DNA of 64,000 bases from Chalara sp. BL73 (taxonomy: Eukaryota; Ascomycota; Leotiomycetes; Helotiales): assembly GCA_918026815.1 (NCBI GenBank), contig CAKJVC010000075.1:124001-188000 (forward strand), given 5' to 3'. Positions 28,120-64,000 of the stretch are shown here, piece after piece; the stretch's first letter is position 1; each line of letters begins with the position of its first letter. The position numbers and the translations under genes are program-made. A model generated the notes under the pieces. The model saw only the letters and a program-made list of their open reading frames with translations. It did no database searches and was not told where the DNA came from.

Positions 28120-28469
28120 TGTTACGCGCATCGCTAACAGGCTTGTGCCTTAGGGGCCTGAGGCTCGGTAGACTTGGTTTACACAAAGAAACCCCTGGGG
28201 TAAGATCACGTGATGGATCATGGATCATGCTATGATCCACGATCCATGGATCATAGCGCTTGCAATGATTCAACCCACGAAGGAATCTATATAAGTAAAT
28301 AGCTTTTCTTTAAATAGGAGCTTCGTGCTCAACTTAATATAGTATTTTAACACTATACTGTTATCGGGATTTTACTTTTATATGTAATATACTTACTTTT
28401 TTCCAGACCAACAACTTTCGGACTAAGATTTTTTATTTATATCAGTTGTAAACTGATAAGACTGTAACA
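28120..28469 (+). repeat. E1 5' LTR
   Basis: 350 bp, TGTTAC...GTAACA. The outer part is nearly unmutated (AGGGGCC, ACCCCTGGGG) while the inner end is AT-shifted. It holds CACGTG at about 28208, a strong hairpin at 28213-28247 and a TATATAA box at 28288-28294. Confidence 0.93.
28213..28247. repeat. Inverted repeat (16-bp stem, GCT loop) in the E1 LTR
   Basis: The arms 28213-28228 and 28232-28247 pair at 15 of 16 positions around a GCT loop; both are built from GGATCAT-type words. The copy in the 3' LTR is partly broken by mutation. It lies in U3, upstream of the TATA box. Confidence 0.8.
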
Positions 28470-28510
28470 CTTTAAGCACTTTGTTTTGAAGTACTTGTAT
28501 TACGTACACT

Positions 28511-31500
28511 ATGTCGACAACTAGTTCAACTTTACGTACTTTTAAAAGCTTAGCGCTATTTGAAGCACTACTAATTCTACAGTTTGTTTATATGTTACAG
28601 CAAGTCAAACTACTTAAAGTTCAAGAACTTAAAACTTTTGATAGCAGTCGACAGCACTTTCGTTTATATGTTTCACAATGCGAAATTTATATCCGTATAA
28701 ACCTGCTATTTTTCGGAAGCTAAAAGCAAATAGTTTTGTAAGCAGTATTTTTTTTGACAAAAACCGCTTACGACTAAATTTTCACTTATTTGAAAAACTA
28801 TTTTGCGTATTTACACAACAAAAAAAAAATTAAAACTAACTTTATTTTTAACAGTCATAAAAAATACGTCAGTTAACTTACTTGTATATTCAGAAACACG
28901 AATAAAAAAATAAAAGCGGAACGAAACATTCAAGTATGCAAACAACTTACTAGTATAACGGAGTACACAGAACGTTTTAAGCTGCTAGCAGAAAAAGTAA
29001 ATTGAAACGATAAAGCTTTTACTGCGCTTTACTACAAAAGTCTTAAGAAAAATGTCAAAAATAATATTGTTTAAAAAGAACAGCTAACTAACTTTACTGC
29101 TATAAAAAACAAAGCAATTAAAATCGACACTAAACTGTATAAAAAACGCATAAAAAAAAAAAGACAGTATTTTTTAGAATTCAGCAAAAAGCAATACTTT
29201 TAGAAATCTTGTTATTACTTACTTATAAAACTAGATGCGTTCCAAAGAAAACTTAAACAAAAAACAAACTTATTTAAAAAAGAAATACAGTAACAACGTA
29301 ACAAAAAACTATACTTCGAATATAGCTTTCCGGGACATATAGCTAGCTTTTACCGCTAAAAGCAACTTTAGAAAAACAAAAAACAACTTAACGTAACAAG
29401 CAAAAAAAAATACAACAAAGCACTTAGCAAAGTTCTGGCCGTGCTTAAAGCCAAAAAACCAAAAATGCCAGAAAAAAAACTAGAACAACAACAGATCTAT
29501 ACTTAATATAACGCTACGTGCATCAAGTACGAAATAGAATGCAGTACAGCCTAGAAAAATAAATGCTTAAGTTGTTATTTCGACAAAAATAACGAATAGA
29601 AAAAAACTAGCAAAACTATAAAAAAATTTTTATTTTAAATAAATAAAGCAGCTATCGAATCAGAATCTAACAAAAATTGAAATATAAACTCGGAGCTAAA
29701 CCGGCTTTTAAGAATTTTCAAATCAAAAAAACGGATTTTGTATAAGTTACTATTAAGAGTTAATTAAAATAACTTTAAAGCACTTTTCAAAAGCTATATA
29801 GTTAACAACACTCCAGCAAAAAAAATCACACTTTAGCGTAAACTAGAAATCATTAATAATAAAATCTTTAAAAAAAAAACAAAACTAAAAAAAAAGAAAG
29901 CAAAAAAAAAAGCTAAAAAACGCAGCAAGTAAAAAGCAATGCTTGCGTTAAAATTAGTCGACAAGTCTAAAAAAAACAACGCAGCGCATTACCGATACTT
30001 ACAACATAGAACTTTTTATTAGACTGTATACTACACGAACTACTGCACATACTATTATAACACTAAGCAAACAGAGTAGTACTTAAAGCGAAAGCGAATA
30101 ATATACTTCGAAAATAACGAAAAAAAAAAAACAAAAAAAGAATTTTGCGCTTTCGGAGAAAAAAAACAATTATTCGTTAGAGTCAAGCTAAAAACATACA
30201 ACATAACAGCTATAATAAACTTCGAAGCTACAAGAAACTTCGTATTACTCGATATAATAAAGCATTTCGGAATATTTACACAAGTCAAAACTAACTTATA
30301 CACTTTTACAGTAGCAAACAGCACGAATGCATCGTACCGGAATAAGCTTGTAAATATTGAAATTACGAAGCTTTGAATAAACACCGGCGACTATATAAAG
30401 TAATTACAATTAAACGTTACCCGAATAAAACGGCATAAAATCATTTTAGAAATGCTATAAATTATAAAGCATAATTTAACGATTAACTAGCAAACAAAAC
30501 AGTTCGTTTTTGACAAATGCTAATATGCAGTCAAGTTTAAACTATTGACTATTAAGCTAACCGGAAGCAAAAACAAAAAAGCACGATTAAAAAAACTCGA
30601 CTAAAGCCTAAAAAAAGTTTGCGCTACTTTTAAAAAAAAGCTAAATTACTTAAACAAAGAATTACATACTAAAAAAGTGCTTAAAAAGTATAAAAAGTTC
30701 GAAAAGCTGTTTTCGGAAAAACAAAAACTCGCGGCTTTACCGAAACACAAACTATAAAATTATAAAATACTATTAATTGAAAAAGCAGTGCTTCTTAAAA
30801 AACTAATTTATTTATTATTCGAAAATAACTTGAGAACGCTTAAAAAGTTCATCGATTTAAGCTTAAAAAAAAGAATAATTAAAAAGTCAACATTACTAGC
30901 AAAAAGCTCGGTGTTATTTGTGCTTAAACCGGACAAAACCAAAAAGTTGTGCGTTAACTATCGGAAATTAAACAATATAACAATTAAAAATCGCTATGCA
31001 CTACTAAAAGCAAACGAAATAAAAAATCGCTTGCAAAAAGTCAAAATATTTACACAGTTAAACTTACGAAACGCGTACTATAGCGTGCGAATCAAAAAAA
31101 GCGAAAAATGAAAAACAGCTTTCGGAACTCGGTACAAACATTATAAGTTTACAGCTATGCCGATAAAACTTACAAATGTTTCCGCTACTTTTTAAAAACT
31201 AATTAACAATATTCTTATGCTATTTTTAAACGTTACTTGCATATACTATTTAAATAACATTTTAATTTATTCTAGCCGAAAAAAAAATTACGAAAATAAT
31301 GTTAAAGCAGTACTGTGTACGCTGTATAATACTGACATAAAACTCAAACTATCGAAGTGTCGATTTAAAGTTAAAAAAGTTATATTTTTGAAATATGTAA
31401 TTTCTACAAAAAGAATTAAAATGAATTTAGCAAAAATCAGATTTATCTTAAAATAAAATGCTTTAACATACGTTAAAAACGTACAGTCATTTGTAAAATT

Positions 31501-33550
31501 CGCTAATTTTTATTAAAGATTTATTAAAAAATATTCGGAATTAGTTACTTTATTAACTCGACTTACTCGAAAAAACGTAGTTTTTAAGTAGACAGCAAAA
31601 GCACAAAAAGCGTTCGACAAGTTAAAACAAGCTTTTACTACTGCTTTTATACTTTTTGCTTTCGATGCAGAAAAAAAAATCAAAATAAAAACAAATGCGT
31701 CAAATTACGCTTTAAAAGCTGTGCTTAGCCAACTTAACGCAAAAAAAAAATAGCAACTAACAGTTTATTATTTACGAAAGTTTACATTAGCAAAGCTTAA
31801 CTATAAAATATACGACAAAGAACTACTTGCTATCGTTAATGCGTTCCGCGAATAAAAAAAGTACTTAAAAAAATCCAAATACTAAATACAAGTGCTAACA
31901 AACTATAAAAATCTTATTGCTTTTACTACTACGAAAAAGTTGAACCGACGCTAAATTAAGTAAGCGGAAAAACTCGCTTTATACAACTTCAGAATTTTAT
32001 ATGTTAAAAAAACAGAAAATGCTAAAGCAAATGCGCTTAGCAAGAAACTAAAATATTTCTTTAACAAAACACATGTTTCGCACGCAGTGTTACGACAAAA
32101 AAAAGATTTATTAGTATTTAACAGAAAAAAACTTTTTTTAGCAACAAAAATAAAACACCGAGTAAAAAACTCAGAGTTTATTCAAGCTTATAAAAAGGAT
32201 TTTATAGCTACTAAAGCTTTCAACAAACAAAAGCAAAGATTTACTACAAACAGCTCAAAAATCTTTCGCTACTACGAGAAAATCTATGTTTTATTTACAT
32301 TCAGAACGACTTTTGTAACGAAACAACATAAACTACTCGCTTATGAACATCAAAAAATCGCTAAAACAATAAACAGAATTTTTAGAAAATATTACTTTCC
32401 AGAAATAAAAAAAACAGTTACTAGAATAGTTATCGAATGCGACACGTGTATCCGGAATAAAGCTTTACGCTATGCTTTTTATAAACTAATGCAATCGCCG
32501 ACTACTTCAAATAAACTATAAAAGTCTATCGCATAGAACTTCGTAGTAAAATTACTATTTTCTAAACAGCTAGTTTCGGGGAAATAGTACGATTTAATAT
32601 TTGTTATTGTGGAAAAAACCACTAAATACTGCTACTTAGAGCTATATTTAAAAAGCAGTACAGCAGAAGATTTAGCTTATACATTTCTTAAAGTCGTAGT
32701 TGCGAACTATAAAATTTTTACAAAAATTATATCGGACAAAAACAAGCTTTTTACATTCAAGTTTTAAACAACGCTTACTGCGCTTATAAAAGTCAAAAAA
32801 AAGCTATCGACAAGCTTTTATTTACAAACTAATAAATAAACAAAAAAACTTAATCAAACAATAAAAGCATACTTTAAATGCTATATAAACTACAAACAAA
32901 ACAATTGAGTCGAGCTTTTGCTGTTCGCACAGTTCGCATACAACAGTGCAATTAATAAAACAACAAAAGTATTGCTATTCTATACTAACTATAACTATAA
33001 GCCAAAAGCATACTATAAACTAAACAAAAATAAAGCACATTTACAGCTTGCAATAGTTAAAGTCGAACAATTACAAACACTGCATTTACAGCTAGCTGAA
33101 AACATAAAATTTCTTAACTAAAAATCTGCGAAGTACTACAATCGTAAGTATAGTAAAACACTACACTTTAAAAAAAGGAATAAAGTCTATTTTGTTAAAA
33201 AAAACATTAAAACCAAAAAACCAAGCAACAAACTAAATTACAAAAAGTTAAAACTATTTAAAATCAAACAAGTTGCAAAACTAAATGCATTCGAACTTTA
33301 CTTTTTTAAAACTATAAATATACACTCAGTATTTTTTGTTTTACTTTTTGAACTAGCACTAAAAAAAGCACCGCTAGCTTTACACACGGAAATTGAATTA
33401 ATCAACTTAAAAGCTAAATACGAAATCGAAAAAATTCTAAACTGCAAGTATATCAGAAAAAAACCAAAGTATTTAATTAAGTAAATCAATTACTCGAATT
33501 CAGAAAACACATAAAAACTAAAAAGAAACTTTAACTGTTTTAAAATGCTT
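28511..33550 (+). pseudogene. E1 gag-pol, broken by many stops
   Basis: The gag start is open from ATG 28511 (STTSSTLRTFKSLALFEALL) to 28723. RT is clearest at 30788-31460: VLFVLKPDKTKKLCVNYRKL and NNITIKNRYALLKANEIKNR, then the catalytic box read as YLNNILIY near 31240, where YLDD has become YLNN by G-to-A change. RNase H text follows (about 31600-31950). The integrase zinc domain is legible at 32330-32480 (YEHQKIAKTINRIFRKYYFP, ECDTCIRNKAL), and the core at about 32530-33120. A chromodomain ends the protein (AKYEIEKILNCKYI, KPKYLIK, about 33405-33483). Trp codons often appear as TAA, TAG or TGA. Chromodomains in this family direct integration to H3K9-methylated chromatin (family knowledge). 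Confidence 0.88.
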
Positions 33551-33719
33551 AAAAAGTTCTACTGTTAATATTTAAAAGCTTTAAGTGTAAAGCTCAAAAA
33601 ACGTTTCTAGAAAAAAAAAAGTTATAGTCAGCAAAAAAAGTGCTCGGCAGAACTTTAAGTGTACAAAATGCGTTATGCACATTCTTTAAGAAATTCTCGA
33701 GCTTGGCCTGTATAGCTTT

Positions 33720-34214
33720 TTAAGCTAACCGTTTTTCTTTTTTTAGAGCATCGAACTTATTTAGAAATGCGAAACTACGTCGCAACATTTCTTTTTTACG
33801 AGCGCGAAGAAACTTTTTTTGCGTACGGATCCGTTTAATCCGTGCAGAAATCTTTGCGGCAGCCGCGGCGAGTGCTTCGGCTTTTTCTTCGGCTTTAGCT
33901 TCGTTTTTTTTCAACTTTTTTTTCGCTTTGTTCAAGGACTTCCAGTTTTTAAAAGCAAAACTACTAGCATTACAACTAGAAAAACTACGACGTACACATT
34001 TAGCACAACGAGTTGACTTTTTTGCTTTTATGCATTTTATAGAATGTCGATTCCGAGCATGTTTCTTTTCGCAAGCAGTACACGGAATTATTTTTTCGCC
34101 AGTCAGAATTATTCGTTTTTTTAAATCTTTTTTTTCGATATTTTTTTTTAACGTATTTTTAAAACTAAAGCAATCGGCTGTACGCTTAGTTGTTATAATA
34201 AAAAAAAAAAGCGG
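33720..34214 (-). CDS. E1 antisense ORF: Cys-rich protein with charged helical tail, unknown function
   Basis: Reading the minus strand, the frame is open for 165 codons from just after a TAG at 34215-34217 to a stop at 33720, although the element's pol gene is full of stops. It reads TGEKIIPCTACEKKHARNRH, IKCIKAKKSTRCAKCVRRSF, then KNWKSLNKAKKKLKKNEAKA, an Ala/Lys/Glu-rich helical region and KFLRARKKEMLRRSFAFLNK. The Cys layout is C-x2-C ... C-x8-C-x2-C ... C, suggesting a metal-binding knuckle, followed by a probable coiled coil. No ATG near the TAG could be fixed as start. It begins about 70 bp inside the 3' LTR, pointing inward. Element C has a homologous ORF in the same place (55189-55764). 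I do not know a named family for it. Confidence 0.6.
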   Translation of the reverse strand, partial: PLFFFIITTKRTADCFSFKNTLKKNIEKKDLKKRIILTGEKIIPCTACEKKHARNRHSIKCIKAKKSTRCAKCVRRSFSSCNASSFAFKNWKSLNKAKKKLKKNEAKAEEKAEALAAAAAKISARIKRIRTQKKFLRARKKEMLRRSFAFLNKFDALKKEKRLA

Positions 34215-34285
34215 CTATGCGGCTTTCTACAATATTTTCTTAGTATACTTAAACATATAAACACGCTAGTCTAAGAAAGAAATAG

Positions 34286-34635
34286 TATTACGCGCATCGC
34301 TAACAAGCTTGTGCTTTAAAAGCTTGAAGCTCGGTAAACTTAGTTTACACAAAAAAACTTTTGAAGTAGAATTACGTAATAAATTATAGATTATGCTATA
34401 ATCCACGATTCATAAATTATAACGCTTGCAATAATTTAACTTACGAAAGAATCTATATAAGTAAATAGCTTTTCTTTAAATAAAAGCTTCGTGCTTAACT
34501 TAATATAGTATTTTAACACTATACTGTTATCGGGATTTTACTTTTATATGTGATATACCTACTTCTCCCCAAACCAACAACCCTCGGACCAAGATTTTCT
34601 ATTTATATCAGTTGTAGACTAATAGGACCGTAACA
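34286..34635 (+). repeat. E1 3' LTR
   Basis: 350 bp, same length as the 5' LTR. Here the inner (left) part is mutated (AAAAGC for GGGGCC in the other copy) and the outer right end is nearly intact (CTCCCCAAACCAACAACCCT). Confidence 0.93.
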
Positions 34636-36832
34636 CTTTTATAATTCCTTTATACGATTAGCTAGTTTCTGTGCATTTTTATAATTAAGCTTTTTTAATA
34701 AAGTATTAGCTTTAAGCGTATTTTAGTTTTAGTTCGTTCGAGAATCGATTTCGAATTTAAGCCGGTACGAAACTATTTTAATAAAAAAGTATAAAAAAGT
34801 TATTTGTGCTTTGTTAATTATAAAAAGTAATTCGTTTTAATTGTTTTAATAGTAATTAACAAAAAGTCGAAGCTTTTAATCGATATATTTGTTTATAATT
34901 TTCGTTTGGCCGTTTGTTTGCTTATAGTAAACTGTCGAAAGTTTAATTTTAACTTTAATAATTCTACAAAACTTGTTTCAAAAAAAAAATACAAATTAAA
35001 AACTTTTATTAAAAACTATCGATTTCGAAGTATATTTGAATCGGTATATTTACTAAAAAAAAAAAAGTCGTTACGCTACAAGCGTCGATTTTTTTGTAGC
35101 AAAAAATTGTTATTGTATTTTTTTTTAACCGATTAATAATAACTAAAATAGTATCGAAACTGTGTTTATTTGTAAAAAACTTTTTGAAATTTATACAAAA
35201 ATACTGTATTAAATATACAAGCACCGATAAAAAGTGTAATAAGCTTTGTTGTTTAGTTTAGTTAGTATAAACTGTTTTGCAAGTTTTACAATTAGCAATA
35301 TATCGTTTGCAGTTCGCATTTATACCGACTTAATAGTATTTAAAAACAAGCAACTGATAAGTTTTAGTTTTACTTAAATGTACGCTAAAAAATTAATTAT
35401 GCGTTTTTTAAATAAAGCGAGTATATAAAAAAGTATTTCGAAGTATATACAGCTTTTTTTTGTATAGTAATAATTTGTTTTCGAAGTAATAACTTTTAAG
35501 TAAAATTGCTCGTAAATCAAAAAATAACTTACAGTTAGTTTGTTGTAGTTTAACTACTAGTTTTAAAAAGTTTAAAAAAAATTTCGAAAAAGTTTCGAAA
35601 TTCAATAAAAAAATGTTTATCGCGAAAATGTATAGTTTAGCTAATTCGGCATTAATTTAAAAATCCAGGCGATAAAGTCCGAAAAGTACTTTAAAACGGC
35701 TGTTTTTTTTAGCTTTTTTTTTTAGCTTTTTTTTGTATAGCTACGTTTTGTTTTTTTCGGCTAAAAATATCGGTTTTAAAATTGTTTTTGCTTAACGTAT
35801 ATATAATTTTAAAATTAAAGTCGGAAAAAAACTTTATTTAGCGTATTTGTTTAGCTGTAAGCACTTTAGTAGTTATAAAGTATTTTAATAATTTATAGTC
35901 CGAATAAACGTTAATTTAATTTTAAACTAATATAAACTTAAAACGCTATTTGCGAAACGTTTTTACAATAGCGTATAGCTTTTTGTCGTGGATTTTTTAG
36001 TTTACTTTATAGCTTGTTAAAACGTGTAAATAAAAGCCGATAAAATACTATTAGCTGTTAAAGTACTTTTAAAAAATAATACTAGCAATAACTTTATTCG
36101 ACAAATTCGTTTTTAGCTTTGTAAAAAGTTCGAAGTCGAAATAGTAAATAACTTGTACTGTTAATAAGCTTTTTTGCAAATTTTCGAATATTTAGTTACA
36201 CTTTTTTGACTATATAAATAGTTTTGTAAAGCGTATAATAGTTGTTAGCAGTTTAGCTATTAAGTCGAAGTTGCGTATAAACTGTCGATAAAATCCGTAA
36301 AATCCTAAAAAAAACTTTATACTTGTAACGATAGTAAGTCGAATTTAGTTTCGTAACAGTTTTGTTTTATTAAAGTTTACTTTTAATTTTTCGGTAGTTA
36401 AAATGTATTTTAAATACTTAGTTTTAGTAACGTAAAACTCGCATTTAGCAATATCGGCTTGAAGTTCGGCATTACGAAATTTTTGCAACATTTTTTTAAC
36501 GTGCTCGATATAAATAGTAAAATTTTCGAAATAAATAAAAATATCGTTGAAGTATACTATACAAAAATTATTTAAATATTTTATTAAAACGTCGTTTATG
36601 TATTGCTAATACGTAGCAAGTTTATTAGTAAAACTAAAAAGTAATATTTTATACTTGTAAAATCCGTAGCAAGTTTTAAACGTTGTGTATTTTTCTGAGT
36701 CGAAATTTATTCGAATTCTGTAAAATACTTAACAAATGTCGAGCTTTGTGAATATTTTAGCTTTTAATACTCGGCTTAACAACTTATTAATTCTAAAAAT
36801 AAAATAAAAGTCGTTTCGAGTTAAAGTATTTA
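34636..36832 (-). mobile_element. Element A, 3' part: minus-strand Ty3/gypsy RT, RNase H and probable integrase
   Basis: On the minus strand from 36832 downward the text continues a reverse transcriptase (TLTRNDFYFIFRINKLLSRV, KAKIFTKLDI, then VYFNDIFIY near 36540) and RNase H (about 36250-35850). Lower coordinates probably hold the integrase but are too damaged to divide. It is the downstream half of a gene whose upstream half lies at 63128 and beyond. It stops at the E1 LTR. The 3' LTR of A is not seen, so it was lost or lies outside. Confidence 0.8.
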
Positions 36833-37133
36833 TGTAACAATCGAAGGCATATAAACTCCTGATTACGTGGCAAGGTACGGACCCAAGATGGGGAAAAGCC
36901 TATACGGACCCTTTTCGGGCATGGCACTTATATCCTTTACGGACTTAAGTACAACACGAACTCCGGAAAAATAAAAAAAAGAATATAAAAAGCGCTTTTT
37001 ATGTTTACAAGATTATTTTTTTTTTTATGTTTTTTATATTTTTTGTAGTAAATTTTTTAAAATGCTACTATTAGCTTAAAATACGTACTTTTATATACTT
37101 TTATTTAGTTTGTAATGTTTTAACGTTATTACA
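36833..37133 (+). repeat. Element B 5' LTR
   Basis: 301 bp. The outer left part keeps GGACCCAAGATGGGG and GGACCC words; the right (inner) part is AT-shifted. Confidence 0.9.
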
Positions 37134-40100
37134 TTATATAAAAAACATTAATTCCGCTAAAAACAGCTTAATAAAATATTTTATTTAAAGCACTTTTAAG
37201 TATCGACTTTAATATCGGAAAAAATCCGGTATAAAATAAAAACAAATACTGAAATAACTCGTATAGCCGCAATATTAAAAAACTCGCGAACAACTAGTAA
37301 ACTAAAACTTAGTTTAGTACAAAGCAGCTAGTAAAAATCGTTAAAGTAACGTTAAAAAAAATACTGAAACTTTTAAAAGCTTTTTTACACGCAAAAAAAA
37401 ATTGCGCATAAAAACAAAAAATACAAGCTAAAAACACCGACTGTTTTACAACAACTATTCGACCAGAAATAAAAGTATAGTAAAACAACAACTATAAAAC
37501 TTCGCTTTTTCGAAAAATATAAATATAATATATACGCAAAGCGAAAAACTTAGTTAATTTAGTTTAACTTAATTTACTAAAAAAAAAAAAAAAAAAACTT
37601 TTAAAAAGTTTAAAATTTATACTATAGCTAAATTAAGTAAATTATTAAAAAATATAAATACTAAATACGATTTAAAAATAGCACAATTTAACAAAACTTT
37701 TACAATATTTACTGTTTTAGTAATAAACAATTAAACTTCGAAATTAAATAACGGTTTAATTAAAGTTAATTCGAACTAAAAAAACTTTATACCGCTTTTT
37801 AATAAAAAAAAAAATTTAAACGACAGTAACAACGACTATATACACTGTAAAATTAAAAAAAAAAAAGCAAATTATTGTTTTAAATATACTAAATTTCGAA
37901 CTTAAAAAACTTTATAAAAATCCGAAAACTTTTTCGATTATTTTTAAACTTTTAAAAACATAAAATTTAAAAAAATAAAGCTTAAAAAAATTGTTTTTTT
38001 AAATAATAAAACTAAACTACTTTTTTAGCAGTAAAAAGCTTTTTTAATAAACCGACTTAAATTACACTTAAAATTTTACTTGTTAAAAAAATTAAAAAAA
38101 GCACTTATATAAAACATAACTAAAAATACTGTTAAAAAATACTTAAAATTTCGTTACTTATTTAAAACTCGTAAATTTAAAACAGCAAAAAAAATGCTAA
38201 AACTTTTAGCTTTTTACTATATAACTAAAAACGAAACAAAGCAAACAAAAACAGTATTTTATAAATTAACAATAAAAAAAAAACATACTTTTAAAATTTT
38301 TTTAAAATTTAAAATATGTTTTTTAAGTATTGCAATTAAAAAAAACGTAGCTAAATCGAAATAGTTTTTTTATTTATAGCAAAAAATAACTTTAAAATTT
38401 AAAAAAACAACAAAAACAACAAAACGCAATTAAAAAAAAAGTTTTTAAAAAATAGTTGCACATTTATTTTTAATTAACTAAAAAAATCGTCGAAATACTG
38501 AAATTTTTTTAATTAGTGTTATAAACAAAACTATACTAATTTAGAAAAAATACTAAATTAAAGCAATTAATTTATACAACTTTAAAACTACGACTTTTTT
38601 TTATATATTATATAAAAAGTTTAGCACATTAAACTATTGTTTTTTATTTACAGTTAAAAGTTACAATTTTTTTTTAAAAAAAAAACAAGTACTTTTGTAA
38701 ATATAACAAAAAACAAAATAAACTTAGTATATTTTCGATATAAAAAAACTAAACATTTTTAGTTAAAATGTTTTTTAAACATTATTATAAAAAAAATTGC
38801 TACTAATATAAAAGCAATAATAAATAAAACAACGAAATATAAAAAACAACAATATACTTTAAAATTAAACTTGAAAAAAAATCGGAAAAAAAACGAAAAA
38901 GTTTAAAGCAAAGTTTTTTTTTAAGCTTGCGCAAATGTAATTTGTTAAATTTAAATTTATTTAAATTAATAAGTAATACGCAATTTTTAGTTTTATGTAT
39001 ATTTAGTATAAATAAAATTGAAATAGCTTTTTAATCGTTAGTAAACACAAAAACTACTAAATACTTTTTTATTAATAGTGCGCTAATTAAACACTTTTCG
39101 GACTTTTTTTAAACTAAAATTAAAAAAAAAATTTATTTTGTTTTTATTTGTAGTTACAAAAAGAAAATTATAAATTATGCTTTAAAATATATTCGTTTGC
39201 ATTTTACAATTAATAAACAAAAAATATTTAACTGTTTTTTTGTGCTTTTTAATTTTAAAAACTAAAATATTATTATCGGTATTAAATAAATAAAACGTTT
39301 TAAAATATTATTAAATTTAATTTAGTATAAATTCGTATAGTTTATCGGAACTTTTTCGATTTTATACTAAAACAAAACTATTTTTATACTTTTTTTTAAT
39401 TTAAAAAATATTATTATATTTAATTTTTAAAACGACGTAATTCGAAAAAACGAAACTTTAAATCGAAAGTATTAACGCAGCAAAAAAAAAGCATTTTTAA
39501 ACTTGCTACAATTTGTTTTCGATTTAAAAATTTTAATTTTTCGAAAAAATGTAACAGTTTTAATAATATTAACTACATTAACGGCACTAACTGTATTAAC
39601 AGTATTAATTATTTTTATTTTAAAACGTAAACGTAAACGCTAAAAATTTTTAATACTTTTTTTACAAAACATTAAACTTTTTAATATTTGCGAAATTAGC
39701 GTTAACGCGTTTTACTATTATATAAAACAGAAATTTTTAAAGTTTTTTTAAACTATTTTTTATAAAATTAATAAAAAACGTTTTAAAACTTAAAGTTTAA
39801 ATTACTTACTAAAAAAAAAAACTTTTTATTTTACGAAAATTTTAACACGAAAACTTTAATTAATTAAAAACTGCTAAACAACTTTAAAAAGTTTTTCGAT
39901 ATGTTTTTAAAAATAGCATTTAATTAATTACTTTTATATTGTTTGTATAACTACAAAATTTATTTTCGAATTATTTTTATATCGACAATTTATTTAAAAG
40001 TTGAAAACTATTAAAAAATATATATTAAAAAACTTTAAAAAAAGATTTATTGTTAATAATAATAGCTTTTTTTACTTTTTAATTTTATTCGTAAAAAAGC

Positions 40101-52948: not shown

Positions 52949-53122
52949 TATAAGCAGAATAAAGTAAGTGCTTGAAAAGAAACAATTTCTTAAGTATAAA
53001 TGTACTTTAGTTTTTTTTTTATAGAATTAATCAAGCAAAAACGAAGTTACTTTTTATTAAAAATGATTTATAAGTCCTTAGATCGAAGTTACGAAGTCAC
53101 ACACCGGTTTATTCCTATCACA
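52949..53122 (+). repeat. Element D 3' LTR
   Basis: 174 bp. The inner left part is mutated; the outer right end is nearly intact (TTACGAAGTCACACACCGGT). Confidence 0.9.
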
Positions 53123-53618: not shown

Positions 53619-53680
53619 TGTCATGCTAAAAGTGACCACTTATTACAATTTGATTAATGCACCTTATATCCTATGTGACA
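53619..53680. repeat. TRIM left terminal direct repeat
   Basis: 62 bp, identical to 53943-54004. Confidence 0.95.
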
Positions 53681-53942
53681 CACCCCCCAGAGGCAATGCT
53701 GAGTAATCACATTGTCTCTGAAGAACCGGCGAGTATGTCACGTGCGCATCACGTGACCTATGATCTTTGTAGAAAGATTTTATCACGTGACCTGTTTTTC
53801 GTAGTCTATTGCTATAAGATCACGTGTGAGACTTCTGGCTCACGTGATCTAAGCGAGACTAGCGCGCACTTCATAGAATTTGGCGAAAAAACGCGCGGAG
53901 TGTGGTCGAGATTTTCACCACTGCGCTAACCGAGCTCATAAC

Positions 53943-54004
53943 TGTCATGCTAAAAGTGACCACTTATTACAATTTGATTAATGCACCTTATATCCTATGT
54001 GACA
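53943..54004. repeat. TRIM right terminal direct repeat
   Basis: 62 bp, identical to 53619-53680, followed by the second ACAAT. Confidence 0.95.
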
Positions 54005-54638
54005 ACAATTAAAGTAAACTAATTTTTATAATAAACAAAGTTTAAATAACTTTTTTTTATACTTTTATCGGAATAACTTCGTATTAGCTTAAGTATAAAA
54101 TAAAGCTTAAAAACAATTAAAATTAAAAAACTTTAAAAAGTACTACTTTATTAAAAAAGCTGAATTATGTAAACGTTCGAAACTTAGCCGAACGTATAAA
54201 AAATGCTTGAAAAACCGTACAAAAAAATATAAAAAAAGTTTAAAAACGTATAATAACGCAAGTAAACAAACATTAAAAACTTATCGATTTTAAAGTAAAT
54301 AAAAAGATTTATTTATCGACAAAAAACCTAAAAAGCTTTCGACTAAACAAAAAGCTAGCTAACTAGTATAAAAAACTTTTTCGGATTTTCGAACAAATAA
54401 AACATTTGTATAAGTTAAAACTGCTATTAAGTTCGAAAATTCACGATATTTTTGTACTAAAGTTTTTAATAAAAAATCCGAACAATTTTTTACTAAAACA
54501 AAAAAATTCTAAGTTTAGTAAACAAGTTATAGCTAAACAAAAAAAATAAAAAGTAAAAAAAATTGTAGCAGTACGCAAATTTCGTAATTTATTGAAATAC
54601 TAAGTAAGTTAAGTAAAACACGATTTAAATACTATTTA
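54005..54638 (+). pseudogene. Element B integrase C-terminus and start of chromodomain
   Basis: The frame carries KIHDIFVLKFLIKNPNNFLL (FHPSLL-type motif of gypsy integrases) near 54430, then VKKIVAVRKFRNLLKY with RIP-type stops, the start of a chromodomain. It breaks at 54638 where element C is inserted and resumes at 61283. Confidence 0.8.
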
Positions 54639-55099
54639 TGTAACGTACGGGGTAGCCTTAGGCCTAGGTAGCTGGGCTTAAAGCTCGTTGGTTGGTATAG
54701 TATGTATAAAATAGACTAGACACTGCTTTTCACTAAAGAGTGAAACGTTACAAGTATAACAAAGACTGTATTGCTAAACTATAATAAAGTTTGAGCACGA
54801 AGCTTTTAAGCTATAAAACTACGACTACTTATATACTATAGTTAAGTTGGAGTTTTTGTTTTTTTTTGAAGTTTCTGGATTTTAGTAAAGTTTTTAAACT
54901 TTTCCAGACTTTATTACGTGACATAGTCGCGGTTTCCAGAAGTTAATAAGCCGTTTGCTTTTTTATTTACTTAAAGTCCTAAAATACTGGCTGTTTCCGA
55001 AACTTACGTTTTTGAGATTTTTATTAGTCTTAGAACGCTGAAGCGTTTTAAAGCTTTTTTTTTAAAGTTTTAACGAGTTCCAGAATTCGGTTCGTGACA
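54639..55099 (-). repeat. Element C 3' LTR
   Basis: 461 bp. The outer left part is little mutated (ACGGGGTAGCCTTAGGCCT); the inner part is mutated. Confidence 0.95.
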
Positions 55100-55188
55100 T
55101 TATTTTTCTTTCGCTTTAGCGTGCTTTCACGTTTAAATACAAGTAAAAAAATCTCGCGCAAAAAGCATAGCTTTCTTTTTTTTTTATT

Positions 55189-55764
55189 ATGCTATTTCAG
55201 CGCACGAGCAAAGTTAAAAATCGTAGTAAAAGTTTGTTTAAAAAAAAAATTTGCAAAAAATTTAAATTAGCTGATTTTATCGAGTTTGTCGGCGAAGAAA
55301 TGTTTTCGTGTACTCGGTGTAAAAAAAAGAATTTAAAATGTGTTGCTGATTTAAAAAAAAAGCGTTCGGCGAAGTGTTCAGAATGTATACAAGTAAAGTG
55401 TTTTTGCGACGTAGAAATTCTTTTAGCAAACAAGTAAGATTTCTAAGTACTCCGCTCGGCCGACTGAATAGCTATCGACTGTCAGCTCGAAAAGCTAAAC
55501 GAAAAAAAGAAAGCTGCTATAGCCAAAATTTTTCGCCTGAAGAAACAAAAAGCATTCGTTAAAAATCGTCGAAAAGAAATAGCTTGTCGTAGTTTTCGCT
55601 ATTTGAAAAAATTGAATGCTGTCGAAAAAAAAAAAAAAAAAGAAATTAAAGCAAAAAAAAACGAAAAGCAGAAGCAAGCCGCTGCTGCTAGCGTCGTTTT
55701 TGCTGCTAGCGAATTTTATAACGATTTTTTAGCGAAATTTTTTAGTTTTTCAAACTTTTTTTAA
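55189..55764 (+). pseudogene. Element C antisense ORF: Cys-rich protein with charged helical tail
   Basis: Opposite to the element's own coding strand, the frame from ATG 55189 reads ADFIEFVGEEMFSCTRCKKK, NLKCVADLKKKRSAKCSECI and QVKCFCDVE, is interrupted by three stops (55435, 55444 and 55465), then continues in the same frame with EKLNEKKKAAIAKIFRLKKQ, NRRKEIACRSFRYLKKLNAV, a poly-Lys run and QKQAAAASVVFAASEF to a stop at 55762. It matches the E1 ORF at 33720-34214 in Cys spacing, tail motif (RRKE..xRSF..L..L) and position between pol and the 3' LTR. Function unknown. Confidence 0.6.
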
Positions 55765-55861
55765 GCAAATTAAAATTTTGTTAATAAAACTTTGCTAACA
55801 ATTCAAAGCAATTAAAGTTGTTTTTAAATTTTTATGTGTTTTTTGAATATAAGTAGTTTTT

Positions 55862-58800
55862 TTATTTAACGAAGTATTTAACTTGTGTTTTAACGTACTT
55901 GCAGTTTAGAATTTGTTTTACTTTATACTCGGCGTTTAAGTTAGCTAAAAGAATTTCGGTTTTTAGTGCTAGTAAAACGTTTAGTAATGCTTTTTCGAGC
56001 AAAAATACGTGAAATACTAAATAGATATTTATGTTTTTAAACAAATTCAATTTGTAGTTTAAAGTTTTTTTGACTTTTTTGATTTTGTATAGTTTTAGTT
56101 TTTTGTAGTTTAGTTTGTTATTTAGTTTTTTAGTGTTAATGTTTTTTTTAAACAAATAAACTTTTTTTTTTTTTTCGAAAGTAAGCTTTTAACTACGTTT
56201 TTTGTTGTAATAGTAAACGTTTCTTTTTGCTACAAACTGCAGGTTTTCTACTAGTTTTTTGTGCAGTTTTTTAATATTTTAAACTTTAACGCGAGCATGT
56301 TTATTGTCGATATCCGTAATTTTTAGTTTTTTGTATACTATTAGCTTGTAGCTACAGTTAGCAAAAAATAGTAAAACTAGTGTCGTTTTTGTAGTCGAAT
56401 TGTTGTATGCGAATTGTGCAAGTAACAATAGTTAAACTTAATTGTTTTGTTTGTAGTTAATATAGTATTTTAAGTATATTTTTACTATTTGGTTTATTTT
56501 TTCGGTTTAGCTATTTGTTTGTAAGTAAAAAAACGTAAACAGTTTTTTTTTAGCGTTTAACTGCGCTATAAAACTTGTTTAAAACTTAAATGTAAAAAGT
56601 TTGTTTTTGTTTAATATAATTTTTTTTAGTAATTTATGCGAAACGATTACTTTTTTAAAAAAAGTGTATATAAAGTTTTTTGCTGTACTTAACTCGTAGT
56701 ATAAAACGAGTATTACATATTTTGTTAGTTTTTTTACTATAACTAGAATAAAATCGTATTTTACTTTTATTATTAGATTTTTAAACTTCGAAAATTTAAC
56801 AATAAAGTTTTAAAATATTGATTTTTATAGTGTAAGTAATATCGAAATTGTTTGCATTTGCTTATAAAAAGCTCGGCGTAAAGCTTTGTTTTTAATGCAA
56901 GTATTACAACCGCTAATTATTGTTTTTACTATAGTTTTTAGTTTTAAACACTAAAAAGTTTTCGCGATTTTTTTATACGTTTTTTTGATTTTTTAGTGTT
57001 TGTATATAAAAAAACTATATTGTTTTTTAACGAAGCTTTTTTTGATTTTTTTAAGTATATACAGCTTTTTTGTTTTTTTTTGTTAAAAAATCTCGTTATT
57101 TTTTTTATTTTTTTTGAAAGTTTTTTTTAGTATTCGTTGTACGCTTAAATCTCGTTTAGCGCTATTTTTAAAGCGTGCTAACTATAGCTCGGTAAAGTTA
57201 TGTTTTACTGTTACTGCAATTTTTTTTATATTTAAAACAAAGTTTTTATTTTCGAGCTTTTTAAACAAAGCTGTTTTTTAGTATACTTTAAAGTTTTTGT
57301 ATTTTGGTTTTCTGCTAAGCGCGTTAGTTTTTGCGTTGTTTGTTTCGCTAACGTGCTTAATAATTAAGTCGAATTTTGCTAGTTTTTTAGTTTATTTAGC
57401 TAACTTTCAGTTGTTTAAAACTTTAATAATAGTAAAAATTCGAAAATTTATATAATCGGTATAAATAGTAACTGTGAATTTTGCTTTTTGTAAATAGATA
57501 CACTAGTGCTTTAGCGCTTTTACGATTGCGAGCAGTTTTTTTTTATAAATGTTATAGTTTTGTTTTGTTAACGATATTGTTTTTAAAAAGTAAACAACGA
57601 AATGTAGTTTGTTGTTGTCGTTTTTTTAAAAGTAAACTGCTTTTATTGTTGTATTTAAAACATTAATTTCAATTATGCTTTTTTTATTTTTGTTATAGTG
57701 TTAAAAAATTAGTTTTTTAGCGAACTTGTTTTTGATTTTTTTTAAAAACTGTTTTTTGATTTATTTTTTATTTAAAAAAAACGTTTTTTTTTGTTAGTTG
57801 CGTTAAGAAATAAACAAGTTTTAAGTATTTTTTAATAAATTGTCGGCAAAAGTTAACGAATTCCAGAAATAACTGCACGTTTTTAACGTTGCGTAGTAAT
57901 TTTTATTTTTAAATATTTTTGATTTTAATAAAATTTATAGCGAAATACTTTATTTCGACAATGTATTTCAAAAAATTTACTTTAATAACACTAAACTTGC
58001 ATTTCGATAATTTTAAGCAAAAGTTTACTTTCGCGAATTTTTTTATAATTTGTTTTATATGCTTTTTGTGTTTTTTCGGCTTTTTTAAAAAAATTAAAAT
58101 ATTGTCGAAATAGTATACAACTGTTTTTTATAAAAAAATTTTTAAAATGTTTTCGTTTTGTTTTTAGCAAATTGCGAAAACATTAGTTAAGTCGAAAAGC
58201 ATAATCGTGTATTTTTATAGTTTCGAAAGTAATATAAAAGCCGTTTTTTATTCGTAGCTTTTTTTAATTCGTATTAAAGCGAACGAGCTTTTTTAGTCGA
58301 GTTTAGTAAATATTTTTGTTTTAGCTAAACTGTTTTATAAATACTAGCTACTAAGTACAAAGTATACGTTTTTTATTGTAACGTTGTTTAAGCTACAATA
58401 ATTTACGCAAAGTTTTTTTTTAGGGTTTTTTTTGTTTTTTTTTTTTTTGCGTGTTAACAGTATATTCGATACTGCTAGTAATTTAGATTTTTTAATTTTT
58501 TTTTTTTTGCTAATTCTTTTATATATTTTTTAAGCGTTTTTAAAGTTTGTAAATTGTATAGTTTTAGTTTTTTAAAAAGTAGCTTTTTTTTTTTTTTTAA
58601 ATTAATTTCGTGATTTTACAGTTAGTGTTTTAGCAAAGCACGTATATTTTGTAAGTTTTTAAACAACTGTAAAAAATTTTTGTATAATACAAGTATTTAG
58701 TCGAATGCATTTTTTGTGTTTCGCTATACCGAACTTTTAGGTTTTTAAAGTTCTAGCTTAAAAAAAGCAGCGCTAACTTTTTTTTTGCTATGCGTATTTT

Positions 58801-60821
58801 GCGAGTTACTTTTTGTATAAATGCATTTGTTAAACTGAATACTATCGTTTATTTAGTTTATATTTAAGTTGTGCTTTTTAACTTAAAAAGTTTCGAAAAT
58901 AATATTATACTTTTTAATTAGTATAACGTTTAATATTATTTTTTTAATGTGCTTTTTTAGTATAACTATTTTTATAAACAAAGTTTTTTTTTTAACTTAT
59001 TTATTTGTGCCGACGTTTTTTTTATTTATTGCTATTACTTAATACAGTTTTTTTTTGTATATAGTTTTAATAGCTTTTTTCCGAACATACTTTATATTAA
59101 TATACGTGTTTATTGTTTCGGTGTTAATTATAACTTTAATGCTTTTGTTTTTAAGTTTTACTTTTTTTTTAAATTAGTATAGTTTTAACGTAGTTGCTGT
59201 TTGTTTTAGTTTTTGTTTTCGAATAACATTGCTGTATATAGCGTTTAGCTATATTTTGTAATCGAGCTTTTTTTTTATTAGCTTATAAAGTTTATTTTTT
59301 TTTAAATAGCTGAGTTTTCGTTTTTTGTTTTTTGCAAACATTTTGTAGTTAAAGTTTTTAGTTATTTTACACTAAAAACAGCGTTTTTTTTGTTTAACTA
59401 TTATTTTTTAAGTGTTACTTTTTTTTAAGTGCTGTTTTAATTTTAAAAACTTTTTTTTAGTTGTATATTTTTCGATAGTTTTTTTATTTGCTAGCTTAAA
59501 CGCTACACAGCGTTTATTTTTATATATAACTTCGGCTTTTATGCCGAAAAGTTTTGTGTTTATACTTTTTTTTTGCGGTTTTTTTTAGTAATCGGCTTTT
59601 TTTATATTTGTTAGAAAAAACTATACTTTAACTTTTTTTTTAAATAAAACTAATTTCTATTTTTTACTAATTTCCGGATGTAGTTTTAGTACTAGCGCTA
59701 AGTTTATAGTTTTCGAAATAAAAAAACCGAGCTCCGAAAGCTGTATTGCTATTTTTATGTTTTCGAGTTTTTTTTCAAAAAACTTATAAAAAATTCTTCG
59801 TGCTTTATGTTTTTTTACACGTTTTTTTACGCAAGTTTTTTTAATTTAAATAGCATTAGCTTGTTTTTTACTGTTGTTTTTTTTGTAAAACGAAGCTATA
59901 TGCTTTTTTTTGCCGCAAGTATAGTACAGCTTGTTTTTTTTTTTATACTGTATTTTTTTTTTAAATATAGACTTTTTTTTTTTTGTAGCGTTTAGCTTTA
60001 TAAGCTTTAATTAACGGTTTAGCTTTTTTTTCGAGTTACGCTTTTTTTTTTCGTTTTTATAATACCGGCGTTTTTTTATAAATTTTTGGTTTTTATAAAA
60101 GTTACTAATTTTGTTATTTATTAACACGAATATTTCGATTAAAAATTTTATGTTTATAAAGTTATTTATTCGAGCAAATTTAGCTTAAACATAAATTTTA
60201 AGTTTTTTTATATAATAGCTAATTAAAGCTTGCGCGTTCCAGCCGGTTTAAACAGTATGTTTTTTAAATTCTGTAGTATAAACAATAGTCGTTTTTGTTT
60301 GCTGTAAACTATATAAATATTGCTCGGCGGTTTTTTTTTTATTTATGTTTTTAAACATTGCTTTAATTGTTTTTTTGAATTTCGACTATTTTTTTAACGT
60401 TATTTTAGTAGCTGCTATGCATTTGTCGATGTTTTCGTTATACTGAAAATAGTTTTTTAAAAGCGGCATAACTTATTTAGCTGCATTTTCTTTAAAGTAA
60501 AAAACAGCAAACAAACAGTAAGCTTTTTTATAAAAAAACTTGTCGTTATTGAATTTCTAATAAATTTTTATTTAAAAAAAAAAAGTTTCGAAATTTTTTT
60601 TATTTTTATAGTACTTGTTCGGCAGAAAAACTTTTAAAGTTTTTAAAACTTCGACTTTAATAAATTCGACGTTAAAAAGTTCGATGTTTTCGTTTTTGTC
60701 AGTAACAGTAATGTTTAAAGTAACTATTACTTTTTTTGTTTTTTGTTTAGCTGTGCTAGCGAAAAAACTTTTCGTGTTAAGTGCTATATTGTTTAATTAC
60801 TTTAAAATTTAGTACTTAAAA
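55862..60821 (-). pseudogene. Element C gag-pol, broken by many stops
   Basis: On the minus strand: gag (from about 60.8 kb) with a zinc knuckle near 59920 (YYTCGKKKHIASFYKK, first Cys lost); protease near 59150-58900 (KVIINTETINTYINIKYVRK); RT near 58440-58100 (LCVNYCSLNNVTIKN, KTKIFTKLD); RNase H and integrase to about 56.2 kb; and a chromodomain-like end at 55862-55950 (AEYKVKQILNCKYV, VKYFVK). An uninterrupted 97-codon frame closes the gene at 55862-56155. Confidence 0.85.
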
Positions 60822-61282
60822 TGTAACGTACGAAATAGCTTTAAGTTTAAATAGCTAAGTTTAAAGCTTGTTAGTTAGTATAGTATATATAAAATAGACT
60901 AAATACTGCTTTTTACTAAAAAGTAAAACGTTACAAGTATAACAAAAACTGTATTGCTAAACTATAATAAAGTTTAAGCACGAAACTTTTAAGCTATAAA
61001 ACTACAACTACTTATATATTATAGTTAAACTAAAGTTTTTGTTTTTTTTTAAAGTTTCTGGATTTTAGTAAAGTCCTTAAACTTTTCCAGACTTTATTAC
61101 GTGACATAGTCGCGGTTTCCAGAAGTTAATAAACTGTTTGCTTTTTTACTTATTTAAAGTCTTAAAACACTGGCTGTTCCCGGGACTCACGTCCCTGGGA
61201 TTCCTATTGGTCCTGGGACGCTGGAGCGTCCTGGGGCTCTTTTCCTAGGGCCTCAGCGGGTCCCAGGATTCGGTTCGTGACA
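60822..61282 (-). repeat. Element C 5' LTR
   Basis: 461 bp. The outer right end is almost unmutated (GGGACTCACGTCCCTGGGAT), the inner left part is mutated. Confidence 0.95.
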
Positions 61283-62467
61283 ATTTAGTATTTTGCATTA
61301 AATTTTATAAAAGCTTTTTACAAGTTAAAAATTTTTTACTTAGTATATTTATTAAAGCCGAAATTACTTTGAAACTTGTTCGTTTAAATAAAAACATAAA
61401 AAAAAAAAAAAAATATATAAATTACTTAATAAATAACAAAATAGCAAATATAAATACCGATAAAATTATTGTATTAACTTTTTAAATAAAAAAAAGTAGC
61501 AAATTAAAACTAAAGTTTAATACCGGATTTTTTTTAAACAATATACTACGCTTTTTTTTTACGGCTTTATAAAAAAGATTTTTATTTTTATCGGAATTAT
61601 AATTATTTTTAATAATATTATTATTCGGCAAAAACAAAACTTTTTTTACAGTAGCATTTTTAATTCGAACTATTTTTTTTTTTTTACGTTTACGTTTGCG
61701 AAACTTTAAAACAAAAACATTCGAAAAGCGAAAACCGAAAACTTTAATTTTTTTTCGCGAATCAACAAAACTTTTTGCGGTATTTTAGAGTACAATTTAA
61801 ACTAAAACTAAAAAAAATAAAAAACGACTTATATTTAAAAGTTTAATATTCGCAGTTATTGCTGCATTAATAAAGCGAAGCTTTTTTATTATTGTACTCG
61901 AAATTTTTATTTAAGTTTTAAACGTTTCGAAAATAGCAATTATAACAATACAGTTCAGAATTTAAGCAGCAGCAATACAAATAAAGCCGAGTTTAGCATT
62001 AACAAATTAACTGTATTTATTATTAATATAAGCAAAAATTTAAAATGCTAAATATTAATTGTTAAAGCTAAATATAAAACAATTCAGGAATTTACCGAAT
62101 AATATTTAGCATTTTGTGCAATACAATAGTTATACTTTTTCGAATTCGTTTTTGCAAAGTAGTATTTATAAAAAACGCTTTTTTTAACCGAATTTTTATT
62201 TTTATTATATGCGCTGTTTTTTTTACGTTTCGTAACGCGAAAGCAACACAAGCATTAAACGCGATACGTTTTTAAAAAAACACCGGAAAAAATAGAAAGT
62301 AGTATTGTTGATTTACAAACGTGTATTAACAAAAAGTAAAACGCAAATCGCGGAAAGCTGTAAAAACTTATAATGTAAATATTAAACTGAAAGTATAACA
62401 AGTAAAAATCAAATATACTAAAAAAAAAAAAAAAAAAAAAAAAAAAACTATTTACTATAGTTGTAAA

Positions 62468-62508
<41 letters not shown>

Positions 62509-62826
62509 AAAACAGCTATTTTATATTTAAAGTTTCGACGGCAGTAATTCAAAATTACTGATTTAAAATTATTGATTTGCAACTAAACGACAACAAAAAA
62601 AAAAGCACAATCGAAACATACTTAAACGCGTTGTTATAACAAAATTAAAAAAAGTAAACAGTAAATAAAGCAGTTTTAAAGCACGTTGCTATTAACTAAA
62701 ACAAAAAAAATCAAAAAAACTTACGCGTAATCGAGCTAATTATACTTTACGATACTTATACGAACTTTTTTAAAACACTAATTTTAACAAAAGTTTAAAA
62801 ACAAGCTTTTTTCCAAAAAAAAGTAA
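61283..62826 (+). pseudogene. Element B chromodomain tail and 3' non-coding region
   Basis: After C the B frame resumes with FCIKFYKSFLQVKNFL and IKAEITLKLVRLNK (61290-61400), matching the segment after chromodomains in gypsy elements. The rest, to the 3' LTR, has no clear coding and contains two long A-tracts. Confidence 0.65.
62419..62506 (+). repeat. Two long A-tracts in the 3' region of B
   Basis: Runs of about 29 A (from about 62419) and about 37 A (from about 62470) are separated by some 20 bp (CTATTTACTATAGTTG). They may descend from G/A-rich tracts turned to A by the local mutation process, or be slippage products. Confidence 0.7.
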
Positions 62827-63127
62827 TGTAACAATCGAAAGTATATAAATTTTTAATTACGTAGCAAAGTACGAACTTAAAATAGAAAAAAGTTTATACG
62901 GACTTTTTTCGGACATAGCATTTATATCTTTTACGAACTTAAGTACAATACAGACTCCGGAAAAATAGAGAAAAAGATATAAAAAGCGCTTTTTATATTT
63001 ACAAGATTATTTTTTTCTTTATGTTTTTTATATTCTTCGTAGTAGACCTTTTAGAATGCTACTATTAGCCTAAGATACGTACTCCTATATACCTTTACTC
63101 AGCCTGTAGTGTTCTAGCGTCGTTACA
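62827..63127 (+). repeat. Element B 3' LTR
   Basis: 301 bp. Inner left part mutated; outer right end little mutated (CCTTTACTCAGCCTGTAGTG). Confidence 0.9.
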
Positions 63128-64000
63128 ATTTAGCTTTTTGTAATCGATACAAAAACGCAAACTGTCGTTAAGTTTTTTAACAAATAAAACAAAAAACGCG
63201 AAAAAGCTTTTACTATAAACAATAAACTTTTTGTTTAAGTGCTTTAATAAATACTTTTTTACTGTTTTTAGCTTTTCAGCAGATTGTCGATATAAAAAAA
63301 AAAAGTAACTAAACAGAAAAGCTTTCAATTAGATTTTGTAGTTATATAAGCGATAAAAAAGTAGCGTATTCGAAACTATTTTAAAAAATACGTTTTAAAA
63401 CAAATTATATAATTTAAGTAGTTTAAAGCAAATTAGCTGTTCGGTTTCTATATTTTTAGCGGCTTTTAATTTTTTAATAAATCGGTTTATTTTATACAAG
63501 CTAGTTTAAAAAAACTTAGTGTTACTAGATTTTATGTTGTAGTATAACGCGCTAACGCTGATTTAACAAATATCGACTATTTTAAAAAATTTAGAAATTT
63601 GTAATTTAGCTTTTTTTTAAAGTCGAAAAGTATTTATGTAAAATGCGAAAAAAGTTCGAAGTTTAGTACTTCGAATAAAAGCTATAAAAATAGAATTTCG
63701 CGATTTTTGCATTTTTCGCATTTTTCGCATTTAATTTATTTTTAAAACTTGATTTTTTCGGTTTGCATTTATTTAGTAATTGTTATAAGTATTAACTAGC
63801 TTTTTAGATTTATAAAAAATTATTAGTTTTTTAAACTATATTAAAGTCGAAAAATATTTAAAAAGCTATATAAGCCAATTTTTTGCCGAGTTTAATTTAA
63901 TTTTAAAATAGCTTAACTACTTATTATCGATAATAGCGTTTTGATTTTTTAAGTTTAAAATCACAAAAAAACAATTGTATATTTGCCGACTATTAAAAGT
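63128..64000 (-). mobile_element. Element A, 5' part: upstream RT and pre-RT region
   Basis: On the minus strand the text KKYLLKHLNKKFIVYSKSFF and LRFCIDYKKLN (63270-63140) is the N-terminal part of a gypsy RT, ending at the B insertion. Coordinates above 63330 are probably protease/gag but too damaged to read, and the element runs off the window. Confidence 0.75.

Follow-up and report, generated by a model that had tools for sequence, protein, structure and literature searches.

A 64,000-nucleotide stretch of the genome of Chalara sp. BL73 (Eukaryota; Ascomycota; Leotiomycetes; Helotiales), positions 124,001 to 188,000 of contig CAKJVC010000075.1 in assembly GCA_918026815.1 (hereafter, the window), contains a block of heavily decayed transposons in which cytosines have been changed to thymines according to the base that precedes them. 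A 5' pyrimidine gives about tenfold higher odds of mutation regardless of the 3' base, and CpA, the target of classical repeat-induced point mutation (RIP), has no advantage over CpT. This context rule extends over two families of long terminal repeats (LTRs) on many contigs and over DNA transposons, and it is absent from the single-copy DNA that was sampled. The best explanation, and a likely one, is a repeat-targeted, RIP-like C-to-T mutation whose preference has shifted to the 5' pyrimidine, with the target probably set by a RID-family enzyme. The process is filed as RIP-like rather than as proven RIP: transitions are found on both strands, decay is confined to repeats in the sample, both LTR elements and DNA transposons of the DDE_1 class are affected, and a RID/Masc1-family gene is present, with the RID role and a premeiotic timing being putative. 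Since CpA is not preferred, the process falls outside RIP as narrowly defined by CpA. (Below, Y is a pyrimidine, R a purine, W is A or T, H any base but G, and N any base; contigs other than that of the window are written as C14 and so on.) The window contains the following features:

1..27817 (no strand): gene-rich, undecayed half, the internal control; GC 0.467 over 1-28000, YCH/RCH split absent, edge placed from 100-bp bins
27818..28118 (no strand): decay over the 300 bp next to the E1 LTR, by leakage or as an older remnant, seen from YCH C/(C+T) by bin
28119..64000 (no strand): decayed repeat block, extending to the window end; GC 0.232, YCH depleted, RCH and NCG kept
28119..28473 (+): E1 5' LTR, 85% identical by blastn to 34285-34639; 53 transitions, 0 transversions
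28474..34284 (+): E1 interior, Ty3/gypsy-like retrotransposon remnant with open pieces matching RVT_1 and Integrase_H2C2
34285..34639 (+): E1 3' LTR, blastn match to the E1 5' LTR
36776..37138 (+): outer pair A, left LTR, 78% identical to 62770-63132; 59 transitions, 24 transversions
41658..41846 (+): nested pair C, left repeat, 84% identical to 52937-53125; 26 transitions, 4 transversions
52937..53125 (+): nested pair C, right repeat, partner of 41658-41846
53619..54004 (+): undecayed small LTR element, similar to a terminal-repeat retrotransposon in miniature (TRIM), within the decayed block; identical 62-bp LTRs, target duplication ACAAT
54580..55150 (+): nested pair D, left LTR, 80% identical to 60770-61331; 84 transitions, 31 transversions
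60770..61331 (+): nested pair D, right LTR, partner of 54580-55150
62770..63132 (+): outer pair A, right LTR, partner of 36776-37138

The two LTRs of an element can be read as a before/after record. The original prediction, made from the letters of the window, had counted about 34 transitions in the first 185 bp of the E1 pair, about 32 of them at YC and two at AC or GC; the recount gives 36, 34, and 2, with no transversion, and over the whole LTR (355 bp) 51 of the 53 transitions are at YC. Searching the assembly (58.66 Mb, 199 contigs) for further LTR copies yielded 40 E1 matches (40 of 146 candidates scored) and 41 D matches (40 of 137 candidates scored), from which 21 pairs were assembled: 11 of the E1 family, 8 of the D family, and window pairs A and C. 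Seventeen of these lie outside the window and 19 differ, the two copies being identical in the D-family pairs on C100 and C126; four (E1-family C14; D-family C132, C100, and C126) are not 6.2 kb apart as in a whole element and were matched up by proximity. Across the 21 pairs, C>T changes affect 602/1176 YCH, 106/1095 RCH, 25/186 YCG, and 4/248 RCG sites (E1 family alone: 371/791, 30/587, 4/120, and 1/140, respectively), and the YCH rate exceeds the RCH rate in 19 of the 19 differing pairs. Within the E1 LTR all 79 distinct YCH sites are mutated in at least one element, while 31 of 55 RCH sites are mutated in none. Ten of the 11 E1-family pairs are free of transversions and show both C>T and G>A, young pairs carrying up to 57 transitions in ~350 bp; the eleventh, on C14, has 14 transversions. 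The trend that had been predicted for the other window pairs is also present, with YC accounting for 40/54 changes in A, 23/25 in C, and 55/74 in D, but the additional AC and GC hits that had been ascribed to C lie in A and D instead. In the older pairs A and D, RCH changes are more numerous (13/45 and 19/88) and are accompanied by transversions (24 and 31), which looks as if the YC-directed process had been joined there by another that is slower and less specific.

Doubt over flanks that have themselves mutated is removed when only sites with both neighbours equal in the two copies are counted. With identical flanks, the rates are 159/343 for YCA versus 25/297 for RCA (odds ratio 9.4), 196/360 for YCT versus 58/510 for RCT (9.3), 37/167 for YCC versus 2/114 for RCC (15.9), and 16/166 for YCG versus 2/217 for RCG (11.5). 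On the 3' side the rate is lowest for G and differs little between A and T. The tabulation of contexts, now extended from the window to 21 pairs, bears out the prediction of a dominant 5' pyrimidine with CpA not above CpT. The YCC rate depends on the method, being.46 with inferred flanks (162/354) and.22 with identical flanks; the rank of a 3' C is unsure, since in YCC the second C can mutate as well and the identical-flank filter then drops the site. A 5' C and a 5' T act alike (CCH 144/329, TCH 248/541), and in the multi-copy alignments with interiors, positions -4 to -2 and +2 to +4 have a small effect on the YCH rate (.42 to.60). The order of targets in young copies is YCW >= YCC > YCG >> RCN.

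The composition of the decayed block carries the same signature. When C/(C+T) is measured on both strands with flanks fixed, positions 28120-64000 are depleted in TCA (.060), CCA (.068), TCT (.035), CCT (.045), TCC (.147), and CCC (.223), and retain ACA (.330), GCA (.347), ACT (.381), GCT (.348), TCG (.454), and CCG (.447). In the gene-rich positions 1-28000 all 16 NCN classes lie within.368-.590 and the 5' split is missing (YCA.58, RCA.52; YCT.45, RCT.47). GC is 0.232 in 28120-64000 versus 0.467 in 1-28000, and GpC in the former is enriched to 2.35 of expectation. RCA is therefore not as depleted as YCA, the comparison on which the earlier claim had been staked; that CpA is not the driver, with ACA and GCA kept and TCA and CCA changed, holds both in these trinucleotides and in the YCA and RCA pair counts. 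The local count given for 37681-37800, 25 C or G of which none is in YCH, is exact, the 25 comprising 17 RCH, 6 YCG, and 2 RCG.

Decay had been placed from 28120 onward; it starts at ~27818, some 300 bp before the E1 LTR, with a sharp left edge at which YCH C/(C+T) passes from 18/37 to 6/48, 4/55, and 2/36 in 100-bp bins. These 300 bp may represent leakage, which is stated for Neurospora RIP in PMC7296669, or an older remnant. Inside the block, the 386-bp TRIM-like element, with identical 62-bp LTRs at 53619-53680 and 53943-54004 and the 5-bp target duplication ACAAT, is undecayed (YCH 59/144, RCH 65/140). Young insertions thus look normal, and place alone is not the cause of decay. This element has a single full copy in the genome, with just three LTR-sized matches (87-89%) elsewhere, and so says nothing about a length or identity threshold for the recognition of repeats by RIP. 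The E1 interior gave RVT_1 matches at E 0.0074 and 0.00065, below the Pfam cut-off, and an Integrase_H2C2 match at E 4.2e-11, above it; the order of reverse transcriptase then integrase is taken here to be that of Ty3/gypsy elements.

An in silico experiment links the pair rates to the composition. The 16 NCN rates from the 21 pairs were applied to 1-28000 until GC matched that of 36776-53125 (0.20), and the resulting NCN profile correlates with that of the decayed interior at r 0.94. The simulated (observed) ratios are GpC 3.18 (2.46), TpC 0.36 (0.49), CpC 0.28 (0.48), CpG 2.62 (3.07), and CpA 0.84 (0.69). With the 5' base pooled, r falls to 0.81 and GpC to 1.14; under a classical CpA>T>G>C model (unfitted weights) r is 0.72 and CpA 0.17 versus 0.69 observed; and a CpA-only model gets no lower than GC 0.28, where r is 0.73 and CpA 0.01 versus 0.69 observed. 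An artefact of composition was considered as the source of the 5' effect and is ruled out by the identical-flank counts together with the simulation. The standard indices for 28119-64000 are RIP-positive (TpA/ApT 1.48, substrate index 0.60), and the YC rule alone, acting on ordinary sequence, yields a TpA/ApT of 1.37 and a substrate index of 0.66. Both lie past the RIP thresholds of 0.89 (TpA/ApT) and 1.03 (substrate index) quoted in PMC12550465, so that a YC process passes for classical RIP.

The rule reaches well beyond the window. In multi-copy alignments, which include older copies and interior pieces and from which identical copies (before alignment) and one D segment with only 3 copies were left out, the E1 LTR (30 copies) gives YCH 721/2471, RCH 170/1664, YCG 36/357, and RCG 9/359, and the D LTR (29 copies) gives YCH 879/1695, RCH 242/1523, YCG 72/144, and RCG 32/312. 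At 60 E1 and D loci with their flanks (~199 kb, two of the loci from the window), YCA stands at.22 and.14 versus.40 and.36 for RCA. The claim that TCG and CCG are largely kept stands for young pairs (YCG 25/186) and has to be softened elsewhere, such sites being not untouchable (~.32 in multi-copy alignments): young pairs spare CpG strongly, old copies in part. For DNA transposons, 20 DDE_1 transposase stretches were chosen for their stop codons, and so not at random, among the matches listed of 155; pairs with under 300 aligned bases or at least 99.9% identity were left out, and the six non-identical pairs at least 90% alike that were used share copies and are not independent. The strongest, L095/L101, has YCH 42/76 and RCH 3/89, with 46 transitions and 0 transversions; L104/L105 has 13/34 and 8/87, L104/L107 16/32 and 9/87, L105/L107 13/31 and 5/88, and L093/L110 22/65 and 8/89. 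As had been proposed from the presence of hits on both strands, editing of complementary DNA (cDNA) is not the cause: C>T and G>A both occur in the pairs, and DNA transposons show the pattern and make no cDNA. Decay was not found in any of 20 single-copy stretches of 3 kb, sampled at round coordinates on large contigs rather than across the whole genome, and no 500-bp bin among them is decayed.

A profile search of the genome (PF00145 at E <= 0.001, TIGR00675 at E <= 10) finds three cytosine-methyltransferase genes. Two are of the RID family: RID_A (C164, 802 aa) and RID_B (C79, 697 aa), whose frames are open once short introns are removed, whose catalytic parts are 42% identical over 318 residues, and in both of which the PCQ and EQT motifs are kept. 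The best named match of RID_A is from Calycina marina (63%), and in a quick tree of 52 chosen rows the two are paired (support 95) in a large helotialean clade, of which Monilinia fructigena DID88_005494, a gene named RID in Table 4 of PMC8959702, is also a member. An ADE2-like gene has its best named matches in Phialocephala subalpina and Calycina marina (both 73%), and the protein matches make the fungus helotialean-like. RID_B, on a branch of 1.98, groups with second paralogues of Hyphodiscus, Xylogone, Rhynchosporium, Cadophora, and others (support 93; the long branches make this placement unsure), and it alone among the 52 rows has GNVYPS at motif X, where most have GNAVPP. RID_B appears to be a second RID paralogue that is evolving fast: its gene is open but motif X is changed, and the named sequences closest to it are likewise second paralogues from Leotiomycetes. 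In the third gene, called DNMT5-like here, an SNF2 domain comes after the PF00145 part, as in DNMT5. The homologs whose presence the original prediction had left to be looked up are accordingly found in part: two RID-family genes are there, and no DIM-2/Masc2 type was found with PF00145 and TIGR00675 (two BAH matches lie on other contigs), a search that could miss a decayed DIM-2 relic. Because two intact RID-family genes are present, the different methyltransferase or deaminase specificity that had been suggested is plausible. From the gene content we infer that a RID-family enzyme probably sets the target, and RID_A, as the more conserved, would be likelier than the divergent RID_B to be the responsible enzyme.

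Under the RIP-like explanation, transposon copies would be recognised as repeats and their cytosines converted to thymine on both strands, in strand-favouring patches. The target would be read mainly from the 5' base, with the 3' base acting independently (T about equal to A, C similar or lower, G lowest). The conversion would take place before meiosis and depend on a RID/Masc1-family enzyme, whose target reading would have shifted towards the -1 base. Mutated YCH sites are indeed clustered by strand, with 209 switches versus 246 +/- 10 over the 19 differing pairs (none of 2000 shuffles was so low). The pair at C168:578k is nearly one-sided, one LTR having 18/41 plus-strand and 4/36 minus-strand sites mutated and the other 2/41 and 14/36; in many other copies the strand bias is not significant. 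Such runs suit an enzyme that moves along one strand per event, and are weak evidence alone.

Several observations weigh against this explanation. RC sites mutate too, and most so in pairs rich in transversions. The contrast is weaker when interiors and older copies are included (YCH.32-.62, YCG.32, RCH.08-.21, RCG.16), and in the D LTR some contexts run counter to the rule (ACA 106/254; CCG 27/29 at one site). The weakest DNA-transposon pair, L093/L094, has YCH 18/69, RCH 14/93, and RCG 4/7. The simulation fits imperfectly, over-protecting GpC and over-depleting CC and TC, and inspection of the RID_A and RID_B motifs found no feature that accounts for the context preference. Finally, some transposon copies are intact and apparently identical (open frames with equal scores; two identical D pairs), which means that not everything is at present subject to the process.

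Other processes could in principle leave C>T changes at YC. Mitotic decay, in which silent repeats are methylated at YC and 5-methylcytosine is then deaminated, as with Dim2 in Zymoseptoria (there at CpA), is an unlikely account. PMC8016269 describes a C>T process that is mitotic and depends on dim2, and the older pairs carry more changes of all kinds; however, the two methyltransferase profiles did not find DIM-2, bursts better suit young pairs that have as many as 57 transitions over ~350 bp and zero transversions, and these pairs spare CpG, the usual site of 5-methylcytosine. Attack on repeats during copying or repair by an APOBEC-type DNA cytosine deaminase is very improbable. The 5'-pyrimidine preference seen here resembles that of APOBEC enzymes and the strand runs are compatible with single-stranded intermediates, but there is no APOBEC_N (PF08210) match at E <= 1 (other deaminase families were not searched), DNA transposons are affected without need of cDNA, and confinement to repeats would require an extra targeting step. 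Ultraviolet damage at dipyrimidines in heterochromatin, for which C>T at YC is a signature, is scarcely credible: a dipyrimidine formed on the 3' side alone gives a C no higher rate, as purine-preceded sites with identical flanks show (RCA 25/297 versus RC[CT] 60/624, p 0.63), and damage of this sort sits poorly with the sharp block edge and the undecayed insert inside the block. Ordinary CpA-type RIP, with a 5' effect arising from composition or multiple hits, has next to no chance, since in spite of the RIP-positive indices it is refuted by the YCA and RCA counts, by the lack of a CpA excess over CpT, and by the poor fit of both CpA models.

The RIP-like process agrees with classical RIP, as in the RID pathway of Neurospora crassa and in Zymoseptoria tritici, in its both-strand C>T changes in repeats, in near-pure transitions in young copies, and in the presence of a RID-family gene; it differs in that CpA is the target there, whereas here the 5' pyrimidine decides and CpA equals CpT. 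CpT as a major form and effects of the 5' base have precedents, and the present YC rule differs from each of them. Magnaporthe is reported to prefer (A/T)pCp(A/T). In crosses of Z. tritici, 240/242 RIP mutations were at CpA (PMC10294615). CpT-type or mixed CpA/CpT RIP is reported for Botrytis, Sclerotinia, and Magnaporthe (PMC4352252), CpT is a major or leading form also in Neurospora Tad1 (PMC2621366), and it appears in an alignment-based analysis of RIP-capable control species (PMC7882544). In the Sclerotiniaceae, GpC and, to a lesser degree, TpC are depleted (PMC8959702, citing Clutterbuck 2011). Botrytis and Sclerotinia resemble Chalara as Leotiomycetes with RID/Masc1 genes, with CpT as good as CpA, and with a 5'-base effect noted; unlike these fungi and Magnaporthe, for which the published counts are of dinucleotides, Chalara has GpC enriched, TC equal to CC, and CpG spared in young copies. 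The TpCpG bias of Microbotryum (PMC4352252, PMC2621366) is likewise a trinucleotide rule with a 5' pyrimidine, but CpG is the target there and a Masc2-type enzyme is suspected, whereas here CpG is hit least and no DIM-2/Masc2 was found with the profiles used. As members of the RID/Masc1 family, RID_A and RID_B conform in their PF00145 match and their PCQ and EQT motifs, and RID_B departs from it in its long branch and in its motif X. The YCH rule itself was not found in the literature searched, in which subscription journals are mostly uncovered and Clutterbuck 2011 is known through citations.

As of 2021, enzyme activity of RID or Masc1 had not been shown, according to PMC8016269. What sets the RIP target would become testable, by enzyme or domain swaps, in a natural system whose rule is as clearly different as this one, with an effect of about tenfold from the -1 base and no CpA advantage. 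The usual RIP indices hide a YC rule and thus constitute a blind spot; RIPCAL, by its own statement, was not designed for trinucleotide bias (PMC2621366). A 2025 survey of 1,239 fungi by k-mer enrichment concludes that RIP-like defences share a CpA preference (PMC12543289), a conclusion that could be rechecked with aligned trinucleotides. A broader reading, offered tentatively and perhaps a little less apt to be right than wrong, is that the base read by the RID-family enzyme in this lineage lies before the C rather than after it, that RIP targeting evolves in kind, that the CpT and CpA signals of relatives may be shadows of 5' rules, and that surveys by CpA index have mixed several rules.

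Two minor observations concern the DDE_1 transposons, among the matches listed. Contigs C22, C24, C27, C80, C92, and C98 hold many open-frame matches with equal scores, as if these copies were recent escapees from decay, and some of the DDE_1-rich contigs may be young or accessory. The matches at C7:549230, C10:49846, C33:105405, and C90:60488 do not differ in score and share two TAG stops, as would be expected if the copy had been multiplied after it was mutated.

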